From NCBI RefSeq assembly GCF_006716235.1, contig NZ_VFOR01000001.1:992001-1056000 (forward strand): a DNA stretch of 64,000 nt. The letters are read 5' to 3'. The notes under the pieces were generated by a model. The model had not been told where the DNA came from. It ran no database searches and saw only the letters and a list, made by a program, of their open reading frames with translations. Below, one piece after another: positions 33,072 to 46,249 of this stretch. The position numbers and the translations under genes are program-made. The stretch comes from Propioniferax innocua (GTDB lineage: Bacteria; Actinomycetota; Actinomycetes; Propionibacteriales; Propionibacteriaceae). Position 1 is the stretch's first letter. Each line of letters opens with the position of its first letter.

Positions 33072-34724
33072 ATGGACACCGACGTCATCATCATCGGGGC
33101 CGGGCTCTCCGGTCTCGTCACCGCCGTGACCGCCGCGAGTGCTGGACGGCGGGTGACAATCCTCGACAGGGAAGGGCCACAGTCGATCGGCGGCCAGGCC
33201 TTCTGGTCGTTCGGCGGGCTCTTCCTGGTCGATTCCCCCGAGCAGCGTCGACTGGGCGTGCGGGACAACGCCGAGCTGGCACTCGCGGACTGGCTCGGCT
33301 CAGCCGGATTCGACGGCCCACAGGATCACTGGCCGCGCAAGTGGGCCGAGGCATACGTGGATTTCGCCGCAGGCGAGAAACGTCGCTGGCTGCGTGATCA
33401 GGGAATCGGCCTGTTCCCGCTGGTGCAGTGGGCCGAACGCGGCGGGCAGACCTTCGGTGCACACGGCAACTCGGTTCCGCGTTTCCACATCACATGGGGT
33501 ACTGGGCCGGGGCTGGTGGAACCGTTCGCGCGCCAGGTGGCCGCGTCACCGCACATCGAGTTCCGTGGACGCCGGTACGTCACCGAGATGTCGCACGACG
33601 CGAGCGGATGGCACGTGGGAGGGGACATACTGGCTGACGACGACGCAGAACGCGGGCGCCCCACCAGCACCGAAGTGGTGGGCCGGTTCGATCTGCGTGC
33701 CCAAGCTGTGGTGGTGGCCTCCGGCGGCATCGGCGGAAACATCGATCTGGTGCGCGAACTGTGGCCGTGGGGCTCTCCCCCATCGGCCGAATCCATGGTG
33801 CAGGGCGTCCCCGACTACGTGGACGGATCGATGCTGCCCATCACCGAAGCCGCCGGCGGACGCCTGATAAACCGCGACCGCATGTGGCACTACCCCGAGG
33901 GACTGCGTAACCACGACCCGCTGTGGACCAAGCACGGCATCCGCATCCTCCCGGGGCCCTCGTCGCTGTGGCTGGACGCCGACGGGGCACGGCTCCCGGC
34001 GCCGAACTATCCCGGTTTCGACGCCCTGGGAACGCTTCAGGAGGCGACCGCACGCGGAGACCATTCCTGGTTCGTGCTGGACGAGGCCACGATCGCGAAG
34101 GAGTTCGCCCTGTCGGGTTCGGAGCAGAATGCCGACCTGACGGGCAAGGACGTCGCGGCACTGTCGAAACGCCTGCGGCCGGGGCCGACACCGGAGGTTC
34201 AGGCGTTCATCGACGCCGGACTCGACATCGTGGTGGCCGACACCGTCGCCGATCTCGCTCGACGGATGAACGAGCTGGTCGGAGCAGACCGTATCGATGC
34301 CTCCGAGCTGATGCAGGTGATCACCGCCCGCGACGAGCAGGTGGCGTCGAAACTGGGCAAGGACCCCCAAGTGGTGGCCACGCGAGCCGCACGATCGTTC
34401 TTCAGCGACCGAGTGATGCGGGTCGTCCCACCGCACCGCCTGCTGGATCCGGGGAGGCCGGGACATCACGGCTCGGGCGGACGCCTGATCGCTGCACGTT
34501 TGCACACCCTGACCCGCAAGACGCTGGGCGGCATCGAGACCGATCTCGATGCGCGGGCGCTGGGCGTCGACGGTCAACCTGTGCCCGGACTGTATGCGGT
34601 GGGCGAAGCCGCAGGTTTCGGGGGCGGCGGGGTGCATGGGCACAAGGCGCTGGAGGGCACCTTCCTCGGGGGCTGCCTGTTCAGCGGGCGTCGAGCCGGA
34701 TCTGCGTTGGCGCGGGATCTTTGA
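33072..34724 (+). CDS. FAD-binding dehydrogenase (fumarate reductase/KstD-like fold)
   Basis: 550 aa flavoprotein. The N-terminal FAD-binding motif is DVIIIGAGLSGLVTAVTAAS; a second glycine-rich motif (VVVASGGIGGNIDLVRELW) and the C-terminal VGEAAGFGGGGVHGHKALEG complete the flavin site. It resembles the conserved actinobacterial group typified by Rv0785, annotated simply as FAD-binding dehydrogenase and related to 3-ketosteroid dehydrogenases. The substrate is unknown; no steroid or fumarate genes are nearby. Divergent from guaA with a 106-bp gap; start at the first ATG before the Rossmann motif. Confidence 0.85.
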   Translation: MDTDVIIIGAGLSGLVTAVTAASAGRRVTILDREGPQSIGGQAFWSFGGLFLVDSPEQRRLGVRDNAELALADWLGSAGFDGPQDHWPRKWAEAYVDFAAGEKRRWLRDQGIGLFPLVQWAERGGQTFGAHGNSVPRFHITWGTGPGLVEPFARQVAASPHIEFRGRRYVTEMSHDASGWHVGGDILADDDAERGRPTSTEVVGRFDLRAQAVVVASGGIGGNIDLVRELWPWGSPPSAESMVQGVPDYVDGSMLPITEAAGGRLINRDRMWHYPEGLRNHDPLWTKHGIRILPGPSSLWLDADGARLPAPNYPGFDALGTLQEATARGDHSWFVLDEATIAKEFALSGSEQNADLTGKDVAALSKRLRPGPTPEVQAFIDAGLDIVVADTVADLARRMNELVGADRIDASELMQVITARDEQVASKLGKDPQVVATRAARSFFSDRVMRVVPPHRLLDPGRPGHHGSGGRLIAARLHTLTRKTLGGIETDLDARALGVDGQPVPGLYAVGEAAGFGGGGVHGHKALEGTFLGGCLFSGRRAGSALARDL

Positions 34725-34871: not shown

Positions 34872-35798
34872 ATGAAGATCTTCGACAACGTCACTCAGGT
34901 GGTCGGCAACACGCCACTCGTACGCATCAACAGCCTCAACAAGGGCGACGCGAACGTCTACGCAAAACTCGAATTCACCAACCCCGCCAGCAGCGTCAAG
35001 GATCGCATCGGCGTCGCCATGGTGGACGCCGCCGAACGTTCGGGACAGCTCAAGCCCGGCGGAACCATCGTCGAGGGGACCTCGGGCAACACCGGCATCG
35101 CTCTGGCGATGGTGGGCGCGGCACGTGGCTACAAGGTCGTGCTGGCGATGCCCGAAACCATGTCGAAGGAACGTCGCGCCCTGCTGCGCGCCTTCGGGGC
35201 CGAGCTGGTGCTGACCCCGGCCTCCGAAGGCATCAAGGGCGCGGTCGATGCCGCCCAGCGCATCGCCGAAGAACGCGGCGGCGTTCGGGTCGACCAGTTC
35301 TCCAACGAGGCGAACTCGCAGGTGCATCGCGAGACGACCGCCGAGGAGATCTGGACGGACACCGACGGCACCATCGACTATTTCGTGGCCGGTGTCGGCA
35401 CCGGCGGGACCATCACCGGCGTCGGCGAGGTGCTGAAGGAGCGTAAGCCTGAGGTGAAGGTCATCGCGGTGGAGCCCTTCGAATCGCAGCTGCTCGGCAG
35501 GGGCACCCCCGGGCCGCACAAGATCCAGGGCATCGGCACCAACTTCGTGCCCCCGATCCTGCATCGCGACGTGATCGACGAAATTCTCGCCGTGGACATC
35601 GACACGTCCCTCGACACGGCCAAGGCCGCAGCCCAGAACGAAGGCCTGCTCGTCGGCATCTCCTCGGGCGCAGCACTGCACGCGGCCCTGGAGGTGGCAA
35701 AACGCCCCGAGGCCGCGGGCAAGAACATCGTGGTCATCATCCCGTCGTTCGGCGAGCGGTATCTCTCCACACCGCTGTACGCCGACCTCATGGACTGA
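34872..35798 (+). CDS. cysK: Cysteine synthase A (O-acetylserine sulfhydrylase)
   Basis: 308 aa PLP enzyme making cysteine from O-acetylserine and sulfide. The PLP Lys is in [14 protein letters not shown]; the substrate-binding loop is [16 protein letters not shown], the phosphate-binding Gly-rich loop is [15 protein letters not shown], and [13 protein letters not shown] is at the C-terminus. No cysE is adjacent. The 147 bp upstream is more AT-rich than its surroundings (ATTGGAATTATCGG, TTTAATAG), as expected of a promoter, but no clear -35/-10 pair could be chosen and no strong RBS is seen. Confidence 0.96.
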
Positions 35799-35814: not shown

Positions 35815-35858
35815 CGCCTCGATGTTGTGCCGCGTCTATTCGGCACAACGTCGAGGCG
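35815..35858. repeat. Dispersed hairpin repeat, copy C
   Basis: An 18-bp stem with a single G-U pair (35815-35832 with 35841-35858) and the loop CGTCTATT. It keeps the family core but has different outer arms (CGCCTCGA/TCGAGGCG instead of CCACCTCTAC/GTAGAGGTGG), so the pairing is preserved by matching changes. Located between convergent cysK and the thioesterase gene, where it may also end transcription. Confidence 0.85.
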
Positions 35859-35864
35859 GGCTGC

Positions 35865-36311
35865 TCAGGGCTGCTTCAGCTTGATCGAACGGCCCGTCCA
35901 ATCGGGCGCCACCGTGCCGAGGTCGGCGATGCGTGCAGCGATGGCCTCGGGGAACGGAGCGGTCGAGGCCGGTTCGCCGGCGACGTGAAGAGCCATGATC
36001 TCCTCGGTCGCCACGACGTTTCCGTCCACCACCATCTCGTGGGCCAGATGCAATTTCTTGGCCCCGGCAGTGACCACCCCACTGCGCACCGTCACCTGCG
36101 CATCACCCGACACCTCTCTCAGGTACCGCACGTGGGCCTCCACCGTGTACAGCGAAGCGTTCTGCTCGGAACGGTACTGCTCATCAATGCCGGTGAGGTC
36201 CATCACCGCATCGGTGGCGAACCCGAACAGCAGCACGTAGTAGGCCTCGGAGAGGTGTCCGTTGTAGTCGATCCACTCCGGCTCGATGCCACGATGCAGC
36301 ACCTCACGCAT
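35865..36311 (-). CDS. Acyl-CoA thioesterase (4HBT hotdog fold), probable betainyl-CoA thioesterase
   Basis: 148 aa. The N-terminal EPEWIDYNGHLSEAYYVLLF carries the Asp/Asn-Gly-His signature of 4-hydroxybenzoyl-CoA-type thioesterases. In known carnitine degraders (Pseudomonas CdhB; also as a C-terminal fusion to carnitine dehydrogenase) such an enzyme releases glycine betaine from betainyl-CoA. Here it directly follows the dehydrogenase gene, overlapping it by eight bases, which supports that role. Start 36311 has AGGAGGG. Last gene of the operon, ending at a hairpin repeat. Confidence 0.82.
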   Translation of the reverse strand: MREVLHRGIEPEWIDYNGHLSEAYYVLLFGFATDAVMDLTGIDEQYRSEQNASLYTVEAHVRYLREVSGDAQVTVRSGVVTAGAKKLHLAHEMVVDGNVVATEEIMALHVAGEPASTAPFPEAIAARIADLGTVAPDWTGRSIKLKQP

Positions 36312-37311
36312 GCGGGGGCCCTCCTGGTCCTTCACCCTCGTCACCGGCTCCACCGTTGCCCTCATCAGCCCGGATCTGGTCGATGATGCGGCGGATCGCG
36401 ATGATGGACCGATCACGCTGCGCAATGAGATCGGCGACGCTGCGGCCCTGCGCTTCCTCGTCGATGCCGGCGACGACGCGATCGCGTAGTTCACCTGTCA
36501 GCTCGGGGGCGCCCAACCGCGTCCACGGGGACTTCAGCGACGGGCCGAAGTGGTCGAGCATGTGCGCCATCCCGCCGGGACCACCAGCCAGATGGAAGGT
36601 CAGCATCGGCCCCTGCAACGGCCAACGCAACCCCGGCCCCTCGGTGATGGAGAGGTCGATCTGTTCGACGGTGGCCTCACCGTTCTCGATCATGTGCAGC
36701 GCCTCACGCCACATGGCTTCCTGGAGTCGGTTGGCGATGAACCCCGGAACCTCACGTTCCATGGTGATCACCGACTTGCCGATGTGCTCGTACCAACCCG
36801 AGGCCCATGTCACAGCGTCGGCGTCCGATCCCTCGCCCCCGACGACCTCGACCAATGGGATCAGGTACGGCGGGTTGAACGGGTGCCCCACCACGAACCG
36901 GCCCGGATCGTTCAGCTCGGTGGCCATCTCCGTCATGGAGTAACCGGAGGTCGAGGACCCCACCACCACACCGGGGGCCAGCGCCGCCTCGATCCTGGCG
37001 AACAGTTCACGCTTCAGGGTGAGGTCCTCCGGCGCGCTCTCCTGCACGAAGCCGACGCCGTCCAGGGCCTCGGCCAGATCCGAGTGCACCGTGACCGCAT
37101 GCGGGTCGGCGCCCTCGGCGAGCCCAAGCTCGGTGAGGGCGGGCCAGGCCATGTCGATGAGCGTGCGGAGCTTCTCCTCGGCGTCCGGCGAGGGATCCCA
37201 GGCCTTCACCCGGTAACCGCGCGCCAGGAAGTGGGCCACCCAGCCCCCGCCGATGGTGCCGACGCCGACGCAGCCGATCGTGGTGACGTCATCGAATGCG
37301 GGAAGGTTCAT
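36304..37311 (-). CDS. cdhA: L-carnitine 3-dehydrogenase (3-hydroxyacyl-CoA dehydrogenase fold)
   Basis: 335 aa. Rossmann motif IGCVGVGTIGGGWVAHFLAR at the N-terminus; the family-specific SSTSGYSMTEMA and VVGHPFNPPYLIPLVEVVGG segments contain the catalytic His. It resembles L-carnitine dehydrogenase (NAD+, carnitine to 3-dehydrocarnitine) more than fatty-acid enzymes, since the canonical 3HCDH C-terminal domain is adapted and no enoyl-CoA hydratase is fused. Neighbours agree: a BKACE gene upstream (ATGA overlap) and a hotdog thioesterase downstream. Function inferred from motif plus context. Confidence 0.85.
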   Translation of the reverse strand: MNLPAFDDVTTIGCVGVGTIGGGWVAHFLARGYRVKAWDPSPDAEEKLRTLIDMAWPALTELGLAEGADPHAVTVHSDLAEALDGVGFVQESAPEDLTLKRELFARIEAALAPGVVVGSSTSGYSMTEMATELNDPGRFVVGHPFNPPYLIPLVEVVGGEGSDADAVTWASGWYEHIGKSVITMEREVPGFIANRLQEAMWREALHMIENGEATVEQIDLSITEGPGLRWPLQGPMLTFHLAGGPGGMAHMLDHFGPSLKSPWTRLGAPELTGELRDRVVAGIDEEAQGRSVADLIAQRDRSIIAIRRIIDQIRADEGNGGAGDEGEGPGGPPHA

Positions 37312-38195
37312 CGAGCACCTCCGAGATTGAGCAGCTCACGGGCTTCGTCAGGGGTGGCGACCTGTTCACCGAGCGAATCGATGATGCCCACGGCCTTCTC
37401 CACCAACTGTGCGTTGGTGGCCTTGACGCCTTTGCGCAGGTACAGGTTGTCCTCGAGCCCGACGCGCACGTGCCCGCCGAGCAACACCGACTGGGCCACC
37501 CACGGGAACTGGTTGCGCCCGATGGCGAAGGACGCCCACTGCGCGCCCTCCGGCAGGAGCTTGACCATGGACTCCAGCAGGCCCGGGTCGGCAGGCGCAC
37601 CGTAGGGGATGCCCATGCACAGCTGGTAGAGCGGCGGCGGATCGAGCAGGCCCTCGGCGACCATGACGTTGGCGAACCAGAGGTTTCCGGTGTCGAAGAT
37701 CTCCATCTCGGGCTTCACGCCCAGATCACGGATGGCCGCGGCCCCCTGTCGAAGCATGTCGGGCGTGGAGACGTAGACCATGCTGCCCTCACCGAAGTTG
37801 AGCGATCCGCAGTCGATGGTGCACATCTCGGGACGCAGTTCGGTCACGTGGGCCAGACGCTCGGTCTGGTTGACCAGGTCGGTGCCCTCGAGCGGCTGCA
37901 GGGGGTTCTCGGGATCGAGCATGAGATCACCACCCATGCCGGCGGTGGTGTTGATCACCGGGTTGACGTCGCTGGCGGCGATGCGCTCCAGCACCTCTCG
38001 GTAATACTCCACCTTCCGCGAGCCCTGCCCGGTCTCGGGCTCGCGCACGTGGATGTGCACCACCGACGCGCCCGCACGGGCGGCGGCGATGGCGTCGTCG
38101 GCGATCTGTTCCGGGGTCACCGGGACGTTCTCGCTCTTGGTCGTGGTCTCACCGGCACCGGTCAGGGCACAGGTCAAGATCACCTTGCGGCTCAT
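37308..38195 (-). CDS. cdhC: BKACE family beta-keto acid cleavage enzyme, probably acting on dehydrocarnitine
   Basis: 295 aa (DUF849). Zn2+-dependent Claisen-type enzyme: beta-keto acid + acetyl-CoA gives a new acyl-CoA + acetoacetate. The metal ligands lie in ASVVHIHVREPETGQGS (two His); VINTTAGMGGDLML, PEMCTIDCGSLNFG and GGHVRVGLEDNLYL are also diagnostic. Members next to carnitine dehydrogenase convert 3-dehydrocarnitine to betainyl-CoA and acetoacetate, the most likely reaction here. The start MSRKVILTCALTGAGE at 38195 has AAGGAAGGA. Precedes cdhA with ATGA overlap. Confidence 0.85.
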   Translation of the reverse strand: MSRKVILTCALTGAGETTTKSENVPVTPEQIADDAIAAARAGASVVHIHVREPETGQGSRKVEYYREVLERIAASDVNPVINTTAGMGGDLMLDPENPLQPLEGTDLVNQTERLAHVTELRPEMCTIDCGSLNFGEGSMVYVSTPDMLRQGAAAIRDLGVKPEMEIFDTGNLWFANVMVAEGLLDPPPLYQLCMGIPYGAPADPGLLESMVKLLPEGAQWASFAIGRNQFPWVAQSVLLGGHVRVGLEDNLYLRKGVKATNAQLVEKAVGIIDSLGEQVATPDEARELLNLGGAR

Positions 38196-38217
38196 GGCAG
38201 AGGTCCTTCCTTCGGGG

Positions 38218-39132
38218 TCATCGGTCGGAGGGGGTGGTGGATTCGGCGCCGGGAACGAGCACGGCGTGCTCGAGATAGGCGCGGACCCGGCGGTGGAGGG
38301 TGGCGGCATCGATCGTGCCCATCAGCATCTGGAGACCCAGGCCGTCGAACAGAGCGGTGAGTTCACCCACCAGATCATCCAGCGGGCGATCCTGCACCAC
38401 GCCTGCGTTCTGACATTCACGCAGCACATTGGCAACGGTGGCAGTCCAGCGTCGGTAGGCATCGGCGTGGCTCTCCCGCGAGCGCGGATCGGTGATCGAG
38501 ACCGCCCACACCTGCAACCAGATCGACCACTCCAACCGCATCTGTTCATCGGCATCGGGGGCCTGGATCGTCAAAAGGTGCAGCAGTCGGTCGCGGGCAT
38601 GTCCCAGGGTCCCGAAGTCTGCTGTCTGACGGTCATAGGCATCCTTGACGCTGACCCGCAGGCATTCATCGAGCAATTCTCGTTTGCTGCCGAAGTAGTA
38701 GGCGATCATCGACGGGCTGACGCCGGCGGCGTCGGCGATCTCCGAAAGACCGACCCCCGGGTAGCCGCCCTCGGCGAACAACCGCCACGCCACGGCGAGC
38801 ACCTCTCTACGGCGGCGCTGTTTCTGTGGGGTCTCCCGGATACGTCTCGGCATCGCCGCTGGCGGAGCGACGGCCGATCCGCTCTCGCTGCCTTCCACAC
38901 CGGTGAGCAGCCAGTGGACCGTGACATCGGCGGTGGCGGCGATCGCCTTCAACTCGTCGGCGGTGAAGCGTCGACGCCCGCTGAGCGACTTGGAGAGCTT
39001 GGTGGCATCGAGGTCGATGGCCTCGGCGAAAGCCCGTTGGGTATAGCCACTCGCAGCGATACAGCCACGAGCACGGGCGCCGATCTCGGCGTCGGAGGCG
39101 ACCGGCAAGGGTCCTTCGGATGCCACAGCCAT
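38218..39132 (-). CDS. XRE-TetR fusion transcription regulator
   Basis: 304 aa with two different DNA-binding domains. Residues 15-77 form a Cro/CI-type helix-turn-helix (YTQRAFAEAIDLDATKLSKS, then ELKAIAATADVTVHWLLTG). Residues 108-152 are a TetR N-terminal domain (GVGLSEIADAAGVSPSMIAY and YFGSKRELLDECL), followed by an all-helical ligand-binding domain resembling BetI-type regulators. The gene lies inside the putative carnitine operon, 4 nt after the serine hydrolase and 22 nt before the BKACE gene, so it most likely controls this unit. RBS weak. Confidence 0.82.
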   Translation of the reverse strand: MAVASEGPLPVASDAEIGARARGCIAASGYTQRAFAEAIDLDATKLSKSLSGRRRFTADELKAIAATADVTVHWLLTGVEGSESGSAVAPPAAMPRRIRETPQKQRRRREVLAVAWRLFAEGGYPGVGLSEIADAAGVSPSMIAYYFGSKRELLDECLRVSVKDAYDRQTADFGTLGHARDRLLHLLTIQAPDADEQMRLEWSIWLQVWAVSITDPRSRESHADAYRRWTATVANVLRECQNAGVVQDRPLDDLVGELTALFDGLGLQMLMGTIDAATLHRRVRAYLEHAVLVPGAESTTPSDR

Positions 39133-39136
39133 GACG

Positions 39137-40297
39137 CTAACGGGCCTCGATCGCCGATGCGAGCGCTTCGAGCAAATCCTTGGCCCGTCGGTCGACATCC
39201 TCGCTCTGCATCTCGTTGAGCAGGAACGAAAAACCGATCCCGTGGTCGGGCCAGGCCCCGTGCAGCCCGCCACCAGCGCCGGTGTGGCCGAACGCGGGAC
39301 GCACCGCGCCGTAGGTCCCGATGGGGTCGTCGAGCTCATAGCCCAGACCGAATCGGACCGGGCGGTCGTTGATGGCGTCGGTCCCCTCCGACCAGGTACG
39401 GGTGGCGAGCTCGCGCGTCGCGGCGCTGATGACGCTCTCCCCGCCGGCGATCAGGGAATACAGACGCGACATGGCGTCGGCGCTGCCGATGCCGCCCCCT
39501 GCGGAGAGTTCGGCGGCGTGGTGTTCGCGTTCGTTGACCGAGAGCCTCTCGCCGAGCAGGGAGCTGCCGTACATGCGGTCGACGATGCGGCGACGCTCGG
39601 GATCATCCTTCAGGAACGTCGAGACGCGGTAGCCGTCGGCGCGGTGGATCGTGGCCACACGCGGCTCCTCCGATTCGGGAAGACCCAGATGGATGTCGAG
39701 GCCATGGGGTGTGGCCAGTCGTTCCCGGACAAGGTCCCCCACGCTCCGCCCGGTGACACGACGCAGGATCTCGGTCATCAGATACCCGTACGTGATCGCG
39801 TGATAGGCGACCCTGTCCCCCGGCTCCCACAACGGCTCCTGCGCAGCGAGGCGTTCGGCCATCAAAGCGTTGTCGAGTTGTTCATCCCCCACCGGGGCGG
39901 GGTCGACGTACACCAACCCGACAGTGTGCGAGAGCACATGATGGACGCGGACCTCGGCCTTGCCGGCCTGTGCGAACTCGGGCCACAGGTCGGCGACGCG
40001 CGCCTGCGGATCGAGCTCTCCGCGGTCGATCGAGATCGCCGCGAGCGTGGCCACCAGTCCCTTGGTGCCCGAGAAGAGCACGGCCAGCGTCGATTCCGTC
40101 CACGGTCGGGCGCCACCGCGTTCGGTGGTCCCGCCATACATCTGCACCAACGGTTCACCGTCACGGTGGACGCTGAACGCCATGCCACCCGACCCGGCCT
40201 GCACGTGTCGGGAGAAGACCTCGGCGAGTTCCTCGGTGGGGATCTGCTCGTGGTCGACGATCGTCACCGGCGTCTGGGCGTCAGAGATCTGGGGCAT
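39137..40297 (-). CDS. Serine hydrolase of the beta-lactamase/esterase (class C-like) family
   Basis: 386 aa. The nucleophile motif SGTKGLVATL is an SxxK site; a Tyr motif is found in AYHAITYGYLMTEIL and the third box is HTGAGG. No signal peptide, so it is cytoplasmic, which argues against a role in antibiotic resistance; EstB-like esterases share this profile. It overlaps the ABC ATPase by 17 bases and precedes the XRE-TetR gene. Possible role, by context only: release of free carnitine or another substrate from an imported ester. Confidence 0.82.
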   Translation of the reverse strand: MPQISDAQTPVTIVDHEQIPTEELAEVFSRHVQAGSGGMAFSVHRDGEPLVQMYGGTTERGGARPWTESTLAVLFSGTKGLVATLAAISIDRGELDPQARVADLWPEFAQAGKAEVRVHHVLSHTVGLVYVDPAPVGDEQLDNALMAERLAAQEPLWEPGDRVAYHAITYGYLMTEILRRVTGRSVGDLVRERLATPHGLDIHLGLPESEEPRVATIHRADGYRVSTFLKDDPERRRIVDRMYGSSLLGERLSVNEREHHAAELSAGGGIGSADAMSRLYSLIAGGESVISAATRELATRTWSEGTDAINDRPVRFGLGYELDDPIGTYGAVRPAFGHTGAGGGLHGAWPDHGIGFSFLLNEMQSEDVDRRAKDLLEALASAIEAR

Positions 40298-42110
40298 TCT
40301 CCAGCAGCTCCTTGGTGTAGTCGGCCGTGGGATTGGTCAGGATCTCCTCGGTGGTGCCCTCGTCGACGATGACGCCCTGCTGCAGCACCGCCACCCGAGA
40401 GGCGATGTGCCGGGCCAGGGCGATGTTGTGCGTCACGAACAGCATCGTCATCCCCCGTTCCTCACGCAGACGAACCAAGAGGTCGATGATGCTGGCCTGC
40501 ACCGACACGTCCAGCGCCGAGGTGATCTCATCACACACCAGCACCTCGGGCATGTTCACCAGGGCTCGCGCAATCGCAGCCCGCTGCCGCTCACCGCCGG
40601 AGAGATCACCTGGGCGACGCCGGGCGAACTCACGCCCCAGCCGAACAGCATCCAGAGCATCCCCGACACGTTCACGACGCTGCCTGGCCGTCATCTCCCC
40701 GGTCATCTCCAGCGGAACCGACAGGGACTGCTCCAGCGTCCGGCGTGGATTCAGTGAGGAGTACGGGGACTGGAACACGTACTGGATGGCCTTGCGCTGC
40801 TGCGCGGCGCGACGCCGCGTCGAGCGCTCCAACGCTTCACCCCGGTGCCGGATCGTTCCTGTCCAGTTCGCGTTCAGGCCGGCGATCGAACGGGCCATGG
40901 TGGTCTTGCCCGAACCGGATTCGCCGAGCAGCAGCGTGGTCTGAGCCGGCTGCAGCTCAAGGTCGATGCCCTTGAGGACCTTGTTCGAACCGTAGGCCAC
41001 CCGGAGGTCCTCGATGGACAGGGTCACCCCGTCATCGTGAGCGGCCTCGGTGGTCCGTGCCGGTTCGTTGACCTCAACTCGCGCTTCCTTCCCGCCGGTG
41101 CCGGGCTCGTTGGCCGTGGACTCGGCGGGTTCGTCATCCGCTTCGGCCGGATCGAACTCCCCGGCACGTCGTCGCTGTTCGAACTCCCAGATCTTGTTCC
41201 GGCCGGCGAGGTCGGGGACGGCGGCGATCAGCGTCCGTGAATAGGGGTGCTGAGGATCATGCAACACCTGTTCCACGGGGCCGACCTCGACGACCTCACC
41301 GCGCTGCATCACCATCACCCGGTCGGCGATCTCATTGACCACCGCGAGGTCGTGGGTGATGTAGAGGGCGGCGACGCGGTGCTTGATGGTCAGATCGCGC
41401 ACCGTGTCAAGGACGAGCGCCTGAGTGGTGACGTCCAGGCCGGTGGTCGGCTCGTCGAGGACGAGCACGTCCGGGTGCATGGCGAAGGCCATCGCGATAC
41501 CGATGCGCTGCTGCTGACCTCCCGAGAGCTGGTGTGGCCAGCGACGCTGATAGGCGTCGTCATCGGGCAGACCGACCTCACGCAGCACATCCCGGACCCG
41601 TTCGGCACGGGCCGCGTCGTCGTCACCGTAGGCGTGGATGTCGAGCACTTCCCGGATCTGCTCACCGACACGCATGCTCGGGTTCAACGAGCTGGCGGGG
41701 TCCTGCGGGATGTAGGCGACGCGGGAACCGCGCAGGCCACGTCGCACCTCGCGGTCCAGGGCCGTCATCTCCACCGGATCCACCAGCGTGGACGCGTGCA
41801 ACGTCACGCTCCCCGCGGTTCGGTGAAGCCCTTCACGGAAATGGCCGAGCACGGCGAGCGCCACGGTGGTCTTGCCCGAACCGGACTCCCCCACCAGGGC
41901 GAGGATCTCCGAGGGGCGCAGCGACAGATCCACACCGCTGACGATGACCTGCGTCGGTGCGGCAGTGGTGCTGATCTCGAGGTCCTCGACCTCGAGCACG
42001 GGGGCGTCGGCGGCAACGCGTGTGTGCCACGCCGACCCCTCGACCATGGGCGCACCAGAACCGGTACGTGTCTTGGCTCCCCTACGTGGGGTGGTTTTCT
42101 GCGGTGTCAT
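40281..42110 (-). CDS. Fused dipeptide-type ABC transporter ATPase (DppD-DppF)
   Basis: 609 aa with two complete ABC domains in one chain. Domain 1: Walker A GESGSGKTTVALAVLGH, signature LSGGQQQRIGIAMAF and Walker B VLVLDEPTTGLD. Domain 2: Walker A GESGSGKTTMARSIAGL, signature LSGGERQRAAIARAL and Walker B VLVCDEITSALD. Both end with oligopeptide-type C-terminal parts (HDPQHPYSRTLIAAVPDL; NPTADYTKELL). The linker at about 325-355 is acidic. It shares one base with the permease stop (TGATG). Energises import by the adjacent permeases and binding protein. Confidence 0.94.
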   Translation of the reverse strand: MTPQKTTPRRGAKTRTGSGAPMVEGSAWHTRVAADAPVLEVEDLEISTTAAPTQVIVSGVDLSLRPSEILALVGESGSGKTTVALAVLGHFREGLHRTAGSVTLHASTLVDPVEMTALDREVRRGLRGSRVAYIPQDPASSLNPSMRVGEQIREVLDIHAYGDDDAARAERVRDVLREVGLPDDDAYQRRWPHQLSGGQQQRIGIAMAFAMHPDVLVLDEPTTGLDVTTQALVLDTVRDLTIKHRVAALYITHDLAVVNEIADRVMVMQRGEVVEVGPVEQVLHDPQHPYSRTLIAAVPDLAGRNKIWEFEQRRRAGEFDPAEADDEPAESTANEPGTGGKEARVEVNEPARTTEAAHDDGVTLSIEDLRVAYGSNKVLKGIDLELQPAQTTLLLGESGSGKTTMARSIAGLNANWTGTIRHRGEALERSTRRRAAQQRKAIQYVFQSPYSSLNPRRTLEQSLSVPLEMTGEMTARQRRERVGDALDAVRLGREFARRRPGDLSGGERQRAAIARALVNMPEVLVCDEITSALDVSVQASIIDLLVRLREERGMTMLFVTHNIALARHIASRVAVLQQGVIVDEGTTEEILTNPTADYTKELLENAPDL

Positions 42111-42964
42111 CAGGCTTCACTCACCTTGGTGGACGCAAAGGTGCGGGCGATCGAATCTGCGATGAGGTTGGTGCCGATCGTCAGCAGGGCGATCACGAGC
42201 ACTGGAAGCATGACGCCCCAGGGCTGGACGGCCAGCGCGATGCGGTTCTCGTTGATCATCAGACCCCAGTCGGGTGCAGGCGGCTGCAGGCCCAGTCCGA
42301 GGAACGAAAGCGAGGCGATACCGCCGATGGAATAGGTCAGACGCAGACCCGCCTCGACCGTCAGCGGCCCGGTGATGTTGGGCAGGATCTCGCGGACGAT
42401 GATGCGCCAGCGCGGCACCGCATACATCTCGGCTGCAGCGATGTAGTCCTCGTTGATCACGTTGAGAGCGGCCGAACGGGTGACGCGGGCCACGCGGGGA
42501 GCGTGCGTCAGGCCCAGGACCATGACGAGCACCCAGCCCTGGGGGCCCAGGACGGTGACCGCCAACAGCGCGAACACCAGCTGCGGGATGGCGAGCAGCA
42601 CATCGTTGGCGCGCATGAGGATCGAATCCACGGTTCCGCCGGTGTAGGCGGCGACGGTGCCGAAGATCATCCCCACGATGATGCCGACGGCGGTGGCCAG
42701 CAGTGCGAGGGTGATCAGCGTCAGACCGCCGGACAGGAACCGGGAGAGCACGTCACGGCCCAGGTTGTCGGTGCCGAAGGGTCCGGTGAGGCGGAACGGC
42801 TGGTCGGCGAATTCGGTGGCCGTGTATCCGGTGGCCCACGGCAGAAGCAGCGGTCCGATGAGCGCCAGGGCCACGATCGTGGCGGTCAACGCCACACCGA
42901 CCTTGGCCTGTCGTTGTGCGAAGAAGCGCTGGAGGGGGGTCAGGACGACGCCACTGGCAGCCAT
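42110..42964 (-). CDS. Dipeptide-type ABC transporter permease (DppC-like)
   Basis: 284 aa with six predicted helices. The permease signature near the EAA loop reads SAALNVINEDYIAAAEMYAV; the N-terminal segment GPFGTDNLGRDVLSRFLSGG is characteristic of DppC/OppC. Start overlaps the stop of the DppB-like gene by one base (TGATG). Confidence 0.93.
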   Translation of the reverse strand: MAASGVVLTPLQRFFAQRQAKVGVALTATIVALALIGPLLLPWATGYTATEFADQPFRLTGPFGTDNLGRDVLSRFLSGGLTLITLALLATAVGIIVGMIFGTVAAYTGGTVDSILMRANDVLLAIPQLVFALLAVTVLGPQGWVLVMVLGLTHAPRVARVTRSAALNVINEDYIAAAEMYAVPRWRIIVREILPNITGPLTVEAGLRLTYSIGGIASLSFLGLGLQPPAPDWGLMINENRIALAVQPWGVMLPVLVIALLTIGTNLIADSIARTFASTKVSEA

Positions 42965-43923
42965 CAGCGAGCACCTCCCGTGCGGAGTTTGGGGTTGGAG
43001 AGAATGCCGACGACGTCGGCGAGCAGGTTGACCACGATGTAGACGACCGCGATGAGCATCACCACGGCCTGGACCACCTGAACGTCGCGATAGGTCACCG
43101 CGTCGATGAGGGCCTGGCCCAGCCCCGGGTACCGGAACAGGTACTCGACCACCGCGACGCCACCGGCCAACCAGGCGAGCTGGATGGCGATGACCTGCGC
43201 GACGGGGCCGATCGCATGCGGCAGCGCGTGGCGGAAGATGACGCGTCGTTCGGGGACACCCTTGAGCCGGGCCATCTCAACGAAGCCGGAGTCCAGAACC
43301 TCGATCATGGTGGCGCGAGTCATGCGCACGATGTAGGGGGCGACTGCGAGAACCAACACGATGGTCGGCAGCACGAGCTGCGCCGGGAAATCCCACACCT
43401 GGGTTCCGGGTGGACGCATGGTGACCGCGGGCAGGATCGTGAACACGCTGGTGGCGAACAGGGCGACGAGCGCGATACCGATGACGAACTCGGGCAGGGC
43501 CGCCAGGACGAGGGAGCCGATGGTGATGGCCGAGTCGGTGGTCCTGCCGCGGCGCAGCGCCGAGTAGATGCCCACGAGCAGACCGATCGGGATCGCGATG
43601 ACCGCAGCGATCACCATGAGCAGCAACGACGCCCCGAGTCGGTCCCCGAGAAGCGCCCCGACCGACTCACCGGAGGCCACCGAGGTTCCCAGGTCACCGG
43701 TGACCAGTCCACCGAGCCACAGGAGGTAGCGCTTCCACGGTGGGGCGTCGAGATTCATCTCGGCGTTGATGGCAGCGATGCGTTCGGGCGTGGCCTGCTG
43801 GCCGAGGATGGCGCGGGCCGGATCACCCGGGAGCAGCGCTGTGGCGAAGAAGATGATGAGCGAGACGGCGAACAGAATCAGGATGCTGATGCCGAGTCGC
43901 TTGGCGATGAGTCGGGCGATCAC
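42964..43923 (-). CDS. Dipeptide-type ABC transporter permease (DppB-like)
   Basis: 319 aa. The N-terminal MIARLIAKRLGISILILFAVS is typical of DppB/OppB, as are LPGDPARAILG and the C-terminal VEYLFRYPGLGQALIDAVTYRDV. The EAA-type loop is ATMIEVLDSGFVEMARLKGV. Start overlaps the substrate-binding protein stop (ATGA). Works with the DppC-like subunit. Confidence 0.93.
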   Translation of the reverse strand: MIARLIAKRLGISILILFAVSLIIFFATALLPGDPARAILGQQATPERIAAINAEMNLDAPPWKRYLLWLGGLVTGDLGTSVASGESVGALLGDRLGASLLLMVIAAVIAIPIGLLVGIYSALRRGRTTDSAITIGSLVLAALPEFVIGIALVALFATSVFTILPAVTMRPPGTQVWDFPAQLVLPTIVLVLAVAPYIVRMTRATMIEVLDSGFVEMARLKGVPERRVIFRHALPHAIGPVAQVIAIQLAWLAGGVAVVEYLFRYPGLGQALIDAVTYRDVQVVQAVVMLIAVVYIVVNLLADVVGILSNPKLRTGGAR

Positions 43924-45500
43924 AGGGCCTCCCCGATGAAGACGCGATGGAATTGGAAACCTGAAAGTGGGATCCCGGTGCGGTTCTCCACAAGGCCTCC
44001 GACGTAGTTCTGGTGGGCGTCGAGCTGGTTCGCAAAACCCCAGATGATGAAGCCGCCCCGTTCGAACAGGATCGTCTGGGCCTCGGCGATGATCTCGGCG
44101 CGACGCTCGGGGTCACGCTCGGCACGGGCCGCAGCAACGAGTTCGTTGAACTCCGGGTCGTCGAAATGACATTCGTTGAACGGCGAATCCGGCAGACTGC
44201 TGGCGGAGGCCTGCTCGAGGAAGTTGCGGGTGTACCAGAAGCTCTGGGAGAAGCCGTAGTTGAGATAGTCACCCCAGAAGGCGGTGAGGTCCATCTGGTT
44301 GATCTTCACCCGGATGTCGGCTTCCTTCGCCTGCTGGGCGAATACCTGGGCGGCTTCGACGGCACCGGCCTGGATGGGCGCGGTGACCAGTTCGATGTCG
44401 ATCCCATCGGGATGGCCGGCTTCGGCGAGCAGGCGCTTGGCCTCGGCGATGTTCTGCTCCCGTTGTGGGACGTCGGGGTAGCTGGGGTCGAACACCGCGT
44501 ACATGTCATTGCCCACGATTCCCTGGCCGGAGAGCGTCTGGTTGATCATGCCGGGTCGATCCACGGCCAACCGCATGGCCTGACGCACGCGGACATCGTC
44601 GAAAGGCTCCTGATCGACCCGCATGGTGAACGGCAGGTACATGCCGGTCACCGAATTGAGGATGCTCAACCGGGGGTCGCTCTCCAGCACGTGGGTGAGT
44701 GCTGCGGGGATGGAGGCGATGGCGTCGACCTGGTTGGAGAGCAACGCATTGATGAGCGCATCGTTGTCGTTGAAGTTCAGCAGGACGACGCGTTCGAGGT
44801 GGGGGCCCTCATCGCCCCAGTAGTGGGGGTTCGGCACCATCACGGTGGACTGTGCGGGCACGAAGTCCTCAAGCATGAACGGCCCGGTGCCGACGGGGTT
44901 CTCGACGTCGAAGTCCTCCGGCACGATCACGTTGGAGTACGAGCCGGTGAGGTTGTCGAACTCGGCGTCGGCGCTGGACAGGTGGAACTCGACGGTGCGC
45001 TCATCCACCTTGACCATGCGGTCGAGGTGCCCCAGTGATGCAGCACCGTTCTTGGGGTCGTCGGGGTCGATGATGCGCGTGTAGCTGGCGATGACGTCCT
45101 CGGGACGCAGCGGACGCCCGTCAGAGAATTTGACGCCGGAACGAAGTTTCACGGTCCAGACCGTGGCGTCCTCGTTGGGGGTGATCTCCTCTGCCAGCAT
45201 GGGACGCAACTCGTAGTCATCGTCGAAGTACATCAACGAGTTGTAGAGATTGATCGCGCGACCGATGTCACCGAGGTTGGTGGCCACCTGGGCATCGAGG
45301 GTGTCCGACGCCCCACCGCCGACGAAGCCCACGGTGAGGCTGCCCCCCTTGACCGGCTTGGAGAGGTCGAACTTCGGCGCCGCCTCGGCCTGACCGCGAC
45401 CGCAGCCGCTGAGAACCGACAGCGCGCCGAGGCCCAGCACTCCCCCGAGCACGGCACGGCGAGTGGTCCTCATATCGAGCGGGACGAATGGCGCGGGCAC
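43920..45500 (-). CDS. Peptide-type (SBP family 5) substrate-binding lipoprotein
   Basis: 526 aa extracellular binding protein. The N-terminus has a twin-Arg run (TTRRAVLGGVLG) and lipobox LSGC, so it may be Tat-exported and lipid-anchored. Family 5 motifs: WTVKLRSGVKFSDGRPLRPEDV and QAMRLAVDRPGMINQTLSG. A GTG at 45500 is chosen because AGGAGG stands at the right distance; the ATG nine codons later (45473) lacks one. First gene of the long operon. Ligand unknown: members of this family bind peptides but also glycosides, nickel, or compatible-solute precursors. Confidence 0.88.
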   Translation of the reverse strand: MPAPFVPLDMRTTRRAVLGGVLGLGALSVLSGCGRGQAEAAPKFDLSKPVKGGSLTVGFVGGGASDTLDAQVATNLGDIGRAINLYNSLMYFDDDYELRPMLAEEITPNEDATVWTVKLRSGVKFSDGRPLRPEDVIASYTRIIDPDDPKNGAASLGHLDRMVKVDERTVEFHLSSADAEFDNLTGSYSNVIVPEDFDVENPVGTGPFMLEDFVPAQSTVMVPNPHYWGDEGPHLERVVLLNFNDNDALINALLSNQVDAIASIPAALTHVLESDPRLSILNSVTGMYLPFTMRVDQEPFDDVRVRQAMRLAVDRPGMINQTLSGQGIVGNDMYAVFDPSYPDVPQREQNIAEAKRLLAEAGHPDGIDIELVTAPIQAGAVEAAQVFAQQAKEADIRVKINQMDLTAFWGDYLNYGFSQSFWYTRNFLEQASASSLPDSPFNECHFDDPEFNELVAAARAERDPERRAEIIAEAQTILFERGGFIIWGFANQLDAHQNYVGGLVENRTGIPLSGFQFHRVFIGEAL

Positions 45501-45562
45501 GTGAAGCCTCCTGAAAGTGTGATGGCCCTCATGTGGGGAACGCCAGCACCTTAGTGACCCGA

Positions 45563-45590
45563 ACCATACGATCGCAACTTCTTTGAACAA
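45563..45590 (-). promoter_or_regulatory. Candidate promoter of the carnitine/ABC operon
   Basis: On the minus strand TTGTTC (45585-45590) and TATGGT (45563-45568) are spaced by 16 bp, a plausible -35/-10 pair about 60 bp before the GTG start. TTGCGAT occurs twice in the same region (inside the spacer and about 25 bp upstream) and could be an operator. Confidence 0.4.
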
Positions 45591-45625
45591 GAACCGGCTA
45601 ATCGCAACACGCGTCGGACCCCGCT

Positions 45626-45884
45626 CCACCTCTGCGTCGTGCCGCGTCTGCCCGGCAAAACGCAGAGATGGAAAGCAACGCCTCGGACGCACGGCCCCAC
45701 CTCTGCGTCGTGCCACGTCTATCCGGCAAAACGCAGAGATGGAAAGCAATGCCTCGGACGCACGACCCCACCTCTGCGTCGTGCCACGTCTATCCGGCAG
45801 AACGCAGAGATGGAAAGCAATGCCCCGGACGCACGACCCCACCTCAACGCAAAGCCGCGTCTACCCGGCAGAACGCAGAGATGG
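45626..45884. repeat. Tandem array of four hairpin repeats (copies D1-D4)
   Basis: Hairpin units at 45626-45671, 45697-45742, 45768-45813 and 45839-45884, exactly 71 bp apart. Each 46-nt unit has the core GCC(G/A)CGTCT..CCGGCA, arms CCACCTCTGCGT and ACGCAGAGATGG, and is followed by a 25-nt spacer that is also conserved between units. D2 and D3 are nearly identical; D4 has lost pairing in the left arm. With the spacers conserved it is a minisatellite, not a CRISPR. It fills the 443-bp gap between the binding-protein gene and the mhuD-like gene. Confidence 0.92.
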
Positions 45885-45943
45885 AGCCATCTGACCGGCG
45901 TCTGCACCCTCAATGACACCGGTCCGTCTGACGGAACGAGGCG

Positions 45944-46249
45944 TCAGGACTTCTTGACGTCCATCACCACGTCGAATTCCAGCAGCGATGCACCGGTCGC
46001 CACCGGCTTCTTCGCCTCCCCGGCATGGGCGGCACGAGCGTCACCATCACGCCACGCAGCGAAGGATTCCTCGTCCTCCCACTGCGTCACCACGAAGTAT
46101 CGGTTCTCCCCCGCCGTGGGACGGAGCAGCTGGAACCCCAAGAACCCCGGAGCGGAGTCAACGGTGTGCGCACGGTTCGCAAAGCGCTTTTCGAGCTCGG
46201 GACCCGCTCCCTCGGGGACTTCGATGGCATTGATCTTCACCACTGTCAT
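45944..46249 (-). CDS. mhuD: MhuD-like haem-degrading monooxygenase
   Basis: 101 aa dimeric alpha/beta-barrel (ABM) enzyme. It is close to mycobacterial MhuD, recognisable from MTVVKINAIEVPEGAGPELE and GASLLEFDVVMDV. The residues known to matter in MhuD are at the same positions: Asn7, Trp66 and the haem-ligand His75. MhuD opens haem to mycobilin and frees iron without releasing CO. No haem importer is next to it. RBS not obvious (the -10 region reads CGGCATGAC on the minus strand). Confidence 0.88.
   Translation of the reverse strand: MTVVKINAIEVPEGAGPELEKRFANRAHTVDSAPGFLGFQLLRPTAGENRYFVVTQWEDEESFAAWRDGDARAAHAGEAKKPVATGASLLEFDVVMDVKKS

Follow-up and report, generated by a model that had tools for sequence, protein, structure and literature searches.

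In Pseudomonas aeruginosa, the products of the caiX-cdhCAB-hocS operon hydrolyse short-chain acylcarnitines and convert carnitine to glycine betaine, as reported (PMC5806209). The carnitine uptake systems named in passages of two reports are BCCT transporters and CaiX-CbcWV, and P. aeruginosa hydrolases for medium- and long-chain acylcarnitines are stated there as not identified (PMC5806209, PMC6562126). Here we describe a nine-gene operon on the minus strand of a 64,000-nucleotide stretch of Propioniferax innocua DNA (contig NZ_VFOR01000001.1, positions 992,001 to 1,056,000; hereafter the window), in which a predicted cdhC-cdhA-cdhB core is joined to a peptide-type importer and a serine hydrolase. 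We propose, with a probability of about 0.52, that the operon scavenges 3-O-substituted carnitine from eukaryotic material, most likely short- or medium-chain acylcarnitines, and yields betaine.

The operon and its predicted carnitine core

The minus-strand run from position 45500 to 35865 consists of nine intact and tightly packed open reading frames (ORFs), listed here in the order of transcription. Model confidence is given as the predicted local distance difference test (pLDDT).

43920..45500, minus strand: family-5 solute-binding lipoprotein (SBP); Pfam SBP_bac_5 1.2e-80; model pLDDT 94.4
42964..43923, minus strand: DppB/Opp2B-like permease (AbcB); BPD_transp_1 and BPD_transp_1_N; best NCBIfam model Opp2B, 244.5 bits (cut-off 350)
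42110..42964, minus strand: DppC/Opp2C-like permease (AbcC); BPD_transp_1, with OppC_N below cut-off; Opp2C, 202.3 bits (cut-off 300)
40281..42110, minus strand: fused DppD-DppF-type ATPase (AbcDF); two ABC_tran stretches and oligo_HPY
39137..40297, minus strand: PF00144 serine hydrolase (Est); PF00144 3.3e-65; SxxK in FSGTKG; HTG box
38218..39132, minus strand: XRE-TetR regulator with BetI-type C-terminus; HTH_3, TetR_N, TetR_C_6
37308..38195, minus strand: CdhC, beta-keto acid cleavage enzyme; BKACE 1.2e-100; nearest solved chain 3c6c, 8.5e-86
36304..37311, minus strand: CdhA, predicted L-carnitine 3-dehydrogenase; 3HCDH_N and 3HCDH; best NCBIfam model PRK07066
35865..36311, minus strand: CdhB, hotdog thioesterase, predicted betainyl-CoA (coenzyme A) hydrolase; 4HBT_2 2.2e-26

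The initial annotation had described nine overlapping or close-set genes on one strand, and the ORF coordinates agree, as all eight junctions either overlap or leave at most 22 nucleotides. Overlaps of 4 (SBP/AbcB), 1 (AbcB/AbcC), 1 (AbcC/AbcDF) and 17 nucleotides (AbcDF/Est) are followed by gaps of 4 (Est/XRE-TetR) and 22 nucleotides (XRE-TetR/CdhC) and by overlaps of 4 (CdhC/CdhA) and 8 nucleotides (CdhA/CdhB). The families it had named, from binding protein, permeases, fused ATPase and hydrolase to XRE-TetR and cdhC-cdhA-thioesterase, match the Pfam and NCBIfam placement. Two start codons are candidates for the SBP, GTG at 45500 and ATG at 45473; the former is probably the start because AGGAGG stands just 5′ of it. 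Read by eye from the sequence rather than by a predictor, the SBP N-terminus resembles a lipoprotein signal with twin arginine and a Cys lipobox.

Sequence comparisons indicate that the core likely acts on carnitine. The two top NCBIfam models for CdhA are both carnitine dehydrogenases (PRK07066, 326.5 bits, cut-off 414; PRK07531, 276.5 bits, cut-off 592), and the PRK07066 cut-off of 414 bits was exceeded in 0 of 14 control genomes. The sole NCBIfam match of CdhB at a threshold of E 0.001 covers positions 338-490 of the 495 of PRK07531, a fused carnitine 3-dehydrogenase. The BKACE, 3HCDH and 4HBT_2 genes stand in the order C-A-B of a cdhCAB cluster.

For comparison across genomes we used 80 named actinobacterial cdh loci, the top 80 among 587 confirmed matches when ranked by similarity to nine CdhA rows. 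Within the fetched stretches, BCCT-type genes were present at 10 of these loci, nine of which lack a family-5 importer; the two genes tested (L091, L109) are Pfam BCCT and lie 3′ of cdhB on the same strand, and the BCCT-like genes of L125, L129 and L135, which score only about 325 bits in our own model, lay outside the Pfam check. CaiD-like genes were found at 2 of the 80 named loci and at 11 of 30 other cdh loci (L021-L032, L051-L068), and the best model for the two proteins tested was crotonobetainyl-CoA hydratase (406 and 294 bits, cut-off 500). The BCCT and CaiD-like neighbours at some related loci point to trimethylammonium substrates. The annotated route from carnitine to glycine betaine through the last three genes is therefore likely in view of best models, gene order and neighbours, while assignment at the L-carnitine dehydrogenase cut-off fails.

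At two loci (L055, L062), the neighbours of cdhCAB encode a CaiD-like hydratase, an acyl-CoA dehydrogenase and an ABC importer of the spermidine/putrescine type, with families tested in L055. This neighbourhood is possibly a gamma-butyrobetaine route with a different kind of importer.

Most cdhCAB loci of the clade are accompanied by a fusion of an XRE helix-turn-helix with a BetI-like TetR protein. An XRE-TetR match spanning both domains was detected near cdhA at 66 of the 80 named loci (L136 is cut by a contig end). A regular expression for the XRE recognition helix had recovered only 31 of 67 regulators near cdhA; it was judged too strict, and model coverage was used instead. The window regulator scores 61.1 bits in the BetI repressor model TIGR03384 (cut-off 201.3), over residues 173-358 of a 373-amino-acid ORF.

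The importer and its associated hydrolase

The operon encodes its own full peptide/nickel-type (Dpp/Opp/Nik) importer, as the initial annotation had held, with SBP_bac_5, two BPD permeases, two ABC domains and oligo_HPY, and the fold agrees. Among VIA-align matches to the SBP model, AgaA with agropinic acid was best (Z 40.7, root-mean-square deviation 2.9, 469 aligned), followed by CcNikZ-II (40.6), NikA, Helicobacter DppA (40.1), Escherichia coli DppA (39.8) and MoaA with mannopinic acid (39.7). Because these top matches are nearly tied, the fold does not pick a ligand. The SBP reaches 107.6 bits in the DppA equivalog model, whose cut-off is 1005. We also inspected Arg383 and Asp436 of E. coli DppA, which we take to be ligand residues (both also appear in the title of PDB 8z1z). 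In two alignments, Arg383 has no Arg counterpart in the SBPs of the module. Asp436 faces a gap by hhalign and, by L-INS-i, window Ser388, which is Asp in many relatives; with the two alignments in conflict, we dropped the idea that both peptide-anchoring residues are lost. What the SBPs do conserve is a stretch near GxWLPFTMRVD (in the window, Tyr replaces Trp) and an FWxTRN-like stretch, whose Arg393 is present in 35 of 35 aligned rows. Both marks also occur in several SBPs without nearby cdh genes.

Est passes the PF00144 gathering score clearly (220.9 bits, cut-off 27) and contains the SxxK motif. Conservation of FSGTKG, VAYH and FGH.GAGG among 26 Est-type matches is 95% or higher. No signal peptide is evident in Est, in keeping with the cytoplasmic location presumed earlier.

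A family-5 importer is present at 38 of the 80 named loci. The PF00144 hydrolase accompanies it at 28 of these 38 and occurs at 1 of the 42 importer-free loci (Fisher 3.8e-12, kinship ignored). When two alpha/beta-hydrolase types are included, the counts are 33/38 versus 2/42, and with any hydrolase plus sulfatase they are 34/38 versus 2/42. For BCCT the pattern is reversed (1/38 versus 9/42). The models for hydrolases, sulfatase and BCCT derive from members of these loci; the categories other than PF00144 were added after inspection, and Pfam identity was checked afterwards on nine proteins. After setting aside 11 short or cut loci, the remaining 69 gave 26/35 with the importer and 1/34 without it for PF00144. 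In all 28 loci holding both genes, the PF00144 gene adjoins the AbcDF gene on the same strand.

The hydrolase slot is filled by different proteins. Between window Est and the PF00144 protein of the L007 type, the best BLAST match covers 67 residues at 38 bits, and both adjoin the ATPase gene. An Abhydrolase_3 protein takes the slot at Brachybacterium, Frigoribacterium and Microbacterium loci, and two Arthrobacter strains have a divergently transcribed Abhydrolase_1 protein. The occurrence of different hydrolases (two PF00144 branches, Abhydrolase_3 and Abhydrolase_1) in one slot argues that the reaction matters. L084 carries Est and BCCT with no importer, and importer-free L137 has a weak 110-bit alpha/beta match that was counted as a hydrolase.

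We then considered kinship with a CdhA tree of 109 rows, from which, as from the SBP tree, L113, L114 and L121 were left out because they come from the same genomes as L051, L052 and L054, although they are counted among the 80. This tree implies 11 changes for the importer and 13 for PF00144, and seven independent pairs are available on well-supported branches. For any hydrolase, 5.4 pairs on average changed in the same direction and 0.0 in the opposite one, with a median p of 0.031 and a range of 0.031-0.25. Restricting the count to PF00144 gave 4.2 and 0.0, with a median p of 0.125 and a range of 0.0625-1. As a pattern, then, importer and hydrolase are clearly linked, while formal testing supports the link modestly.

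In the order-mate family Nocardioidaceae (f2), which includes Nocardioides and Marmoricola, the module is flanked at 12 of 15 importer loci and at 0 of 3 importer-free loci by a PF00884 sulfatase, which has the motif CSPTR and lacks an evident signal peptide. Examples are L053:923-3223, L065:7013-9520 and L066:10807-13326, with L131 and others in addition. At L053, L065 and L131 the sulfatase is present and no esterase was found.

Distribution, origin and genomic setting

A gene-neighbourhood search showed that the gene set recurs in other genera, so the arrangement is more than chance. The spread of CdhA is patchy: counting the own genome, matches were found in 3 of 147 family genomes (E 1e-40), 13 of 396 in the phylum (1e-60) and 20 of 391 in the order (1e-90). 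One 39% CdhA match, L008 (genome G060), lacks the other module genes, its importer-like matches being weak ABC ATPases, and was excluded from later maps. Leucobacter tardus (L075) has the window order SBP-B-C-DF-Est-regulator-cdhC-A-B, and Brevibacterium album (L074) has it up to cdhA, with cdhB not found; the respective SBPs share 65% and 69% identity with that of the window. The order regulator-cdhC-A-B-SBP-B-C-DF, mostly followed by Est, was found in loci of Arthrobacter, Paeniglutamicibacter, Glutamicibacter uratoxydans, Cryobacterium and most Amycolatopsis and Prauserella. In G027 (L007), from the same family as the window, the order is SBP-B-C-DF-hydrolase-cdhC-A-B, with a different PF00144 branch and an IclR regulator. 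The importer is rare in Streptomyces (1/15 loci), Saccharopolyspora (0/9) and Brevibacterium (1/12).

Window CdhA belongs to a well-delimited 34-row group (support 98) that consists mostly of Brevibacterium and genera we take to belong to Micrococcales. The SBP tree, reduced from 81 to 70 rows by removing 11 near-duplicates and, like the CdhA tree, a quick one, places the window SBP in a six-row set (99) with Leucobacter, Brevibacterium album, G963, Microbacterium and Frigoribacterium, apart from the order-mates and G027. Horizontal acquisition is the simplest reading of this grouping, and the probable donor of the operon is a Micrococcales-like lineage.

An SBP profile at E 1e-110 matched 34 of 394 genomes of the class, and cdh genes lay near the match in eight of them, namely the window, five Nocardioidaceae, G1092 and G940. 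The idea that this SBP is exclusive to cdh loci was rejected on this count. Most cdh-linked proteins in the SBP tree group into two supported clades, one of 31 rows with a single exception and one of 20 rows with two exceptions, and the rows outside are mostly cdh-free. The importer group therefore appears wider than the pathway, and in cdh-free genomes its ligand may be shared or may differ.

Downstream, the operon is bordered by a convergent ORF at 34872-35798, named cysK-like by eye. Upstream, about 440 bases containing a tandem repeat of 71 bases separate the operon from a small gene with an ABM domain. A search of 45400-45960 for a promoter of the sigma-70 type or a terminator found neither, a result of little weight in an actinobacterium. 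Before the cysK-like gene, on the plus strand at 33072-34724, lies a gene for a flavin adenine dinucleotide-binding dehydrogenase assigned to PRK12834 (810.7 bits, cut-off 476). The repeat is an inverted-repeat element with the core GTGCCRCGTCTAYYCGGCA, present as 3.7 tandem 71-base units upstream of the operon (45626-45885) and once at its end (35815-35862). The element has 24 matches in the genome at up to 2 mismatches, against 2 for a control pattern, with some arrays spaced 71-83 bases, and looks like a dispersed family similar to repetitive extragenic palindromic (REP) elements.

No betaine-using enzyme follows the operon, which agrees with what had been noted, and genome-wide no demethylation route was recognised among the families searched, the DgcA-type route being outside that search. 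GCV_T proteins of the genome are only GcvT-like and YgfZ-like, and for its three Ring_hydroxyl_A (Rieske) oxygenases GbcA is a poorer fit than the models for benzoate, anthranilate or phenylpropionate. Retention of betaine as an osmolyte is plausible on this basis. The genome also encodes one OpuAC protein and three BCCTs. One BCCT scores above the BetT cut-off, and its gene adjoins one for choline dehydrogenase; the other two come closer to the betaine model, whose cut-off they miss. An adjoining pair of CoA_trans proteins would be suited to acetoacetate.

Proposed function and comparison with known systems

As we infer the substrates, the order of events and the regulation, the family-5 lipoprotein would capture a 3-O-substituted carnitine, and AbcB, AbcC and AbcDF would import it at the cost of ATP. 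The PF00144 hydrolase would then cut the ester in the cytoplasm and free the 3-hydroxyl. CdhA would oxidise L-carnitine with nicotinamide adenine dinucleotide to 3-dehydrocarnitine, CdhC would convert this with acetyl-CoA to betainyl-CoA and acetoacetate, and CdhB would release glycine betaine. Acetoacetate could be used through the CoA-transferase pair, betaine would probably be retained, and the XRE-TetR protein may sense a pathway compound and control the operon. The earlier suggestion of a larger carnitine ester or conjugate as the substrate gains from the recurrence of the importer-hydrolase link across genera, which leaves the cargo itself a prediction.

Several observations weigh against this proposal. 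CdhA lies under the PRK07066 cut-off (326.5 versus 414 bits). None of the hydrolases sought was found at 4 of the 38 importer loci (L115, L122, L143 and L126, the last on a short contig). Corrected for kinship, the importer-hydrolase link is weaker, with only seven independent pairs, and building the hydrolase models from importer loci biases toward it. PF00144 proteins, moreover, cleave many esters and amides. As for the importer, no cdh genes were seen near the SBP in 26 of the 34 genomes, within stretches of 5 to 19.8 kb (the contigs of L210 and L211 measure 11 and 5 kb). G963 (L196) carries regulator-SBP-B-C-DF-Est, its Est being PF00144, without cdh genes within 19.8 kb, a cassette in which importer and esterase go together as one unit. 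In G285 the SBP match reaches 673 bits, and no CdhA match was obtained at 1e-60. Free carnitine, finally, may enter by the three BCCTs of the genome.

The importer could instead carry free L-carnitine, or carnitine and other betaines, with the hydrolase in a side role. This would resemble P. aeruginosa, where carnitine is imported with CaiX even though hocS shares the operon (PMC5806209), and it would suit the four importer loci at which none of the hydrolases sought was found. However, some loci without importer and hydrolase have a BCCT, the three BCCTs here make an extra ATP-driven importer less needed, and the hydrolase adjoins the ATPase wherever PF00144 and importer coexist, so that we consider free carnitine a somewhat unlikely cargo. 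It is quite unlikely that the ligand is another carnitine conjugate, such as an amide, a sulfate ester or a peptide-like compound, freed by the PF00144 protein, an alpha/beta hydrolase or the sulfatase. The sulfatases flanking Nocardioidaceae importer loci, three of them at loci where no esterase was found, would fit such a ligand, as would the nearest solved SBPs, which bind opines, glutathione, dipeptides and Ni-histidine and whose fold suits larger ligands; but 5 of the 12 sulfatases are encoded on the strand opposite to the module, the window operon has none, and we know of no natural carnitine sulfate. A third alternative is that CdhA, CdhC and CdhB use another beta-hydroxy acid and the operon is unrelated to carnitine. 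3HCDH and BKACE proteins act on many substrates, other substrates appear among the NCBIfam models matched, and CdhA misses its equivalog cut-off. We nevertheless regard this, too, as quite unlikely, given that the best two CdhA models are carnitine dehydrogenases, the thioesterase matches only the fused carnitine enzyme, BCCT and CaiD-like genes neighbour some loci, and the gene order equals that reported for P. aeruginosa (PMC5806209).

Beyond the preferred reading of acylcarnitine scavenging, we put forward only tentatively that a whole actinobacterial group of ATP-driven family-5 importers is dedicated to 3-O-substituted carnitines, with an exchangeable unmasking enzyme matched to the ester that each species meets. 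Under the same tentative proposal, the exchangeable enzymes might be the two PF00144 branches, Abhydrolase_3 and Abhydrolase_1, and in Nocardioidaceae also the sulfatase. Acylcarnitines are a notable part of the animal carnitine pool. To our knowledge, no Dpp-type importer of a quaternary amine ester has been described earlier, so that the dedicated group, if true, would be the first. Bacterial acylcarnitine uptake is little known, and a recurrent actinobacterial module would give family-5 SBPs a new ligand class, while the importer-plus-hydrolase module would serve as a marker of acylcarnitine use. The module also suggests that one pathway is served by several types of uptake system (BCCT, Pot-type ABC and family-5 ABC). 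Our search of open-licence papers found none that presents this module in its title or abstract.

HocS is an alpha/beta hydrolase, whereas the hydrolase here belongs to PF00144. The operon resembles caiX-cdhCAB-hocS, as reported, with a binding protein, the order cdhC-cdhA-cdhB and an acylcarnitine hydrolase gene in one operon, and with glycine betaine as the product, predicted in our case (PMC5806209). CaiX, however, uses the separate CbcWV ABC transporter, whereas a full family-5 importer is encoded within the present operon, and the regulators there are CdhR and GbdR rather than an XRE-TetR protein (PMC5806209). In the carnitine cluster of Acinetobacter baumannii, the carnitine BCCT gene lies 12 bp upstream of an acylcarnitine hydrolase gene, so that a transporter likewise stands beside a hydrolase, but that cluster combines BCCT transport with the CntAB oxygenase route (PMC6562126). 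A hydrolase gene beside carnitine genes thus has precedents in these two proteobacteria and is not in itself new (PMC5806209, PMC6562126); what is unusual is the importer family, whose familiar cargoes are peptides and metals. The first part of the fused carnitine 3-dehydrogenase PRK07531 resembles window CdhA and its last part window CdhB, which here are two separate overlapping genes. The importer shares fold and subunits with DppABCDF, NikABCDE and the opine (AgaA) importers, but its ATPases are fused and DppA Arg383 has no Arg counterpart. The catabolic core and the importer are each of a known type, and their combination is new.

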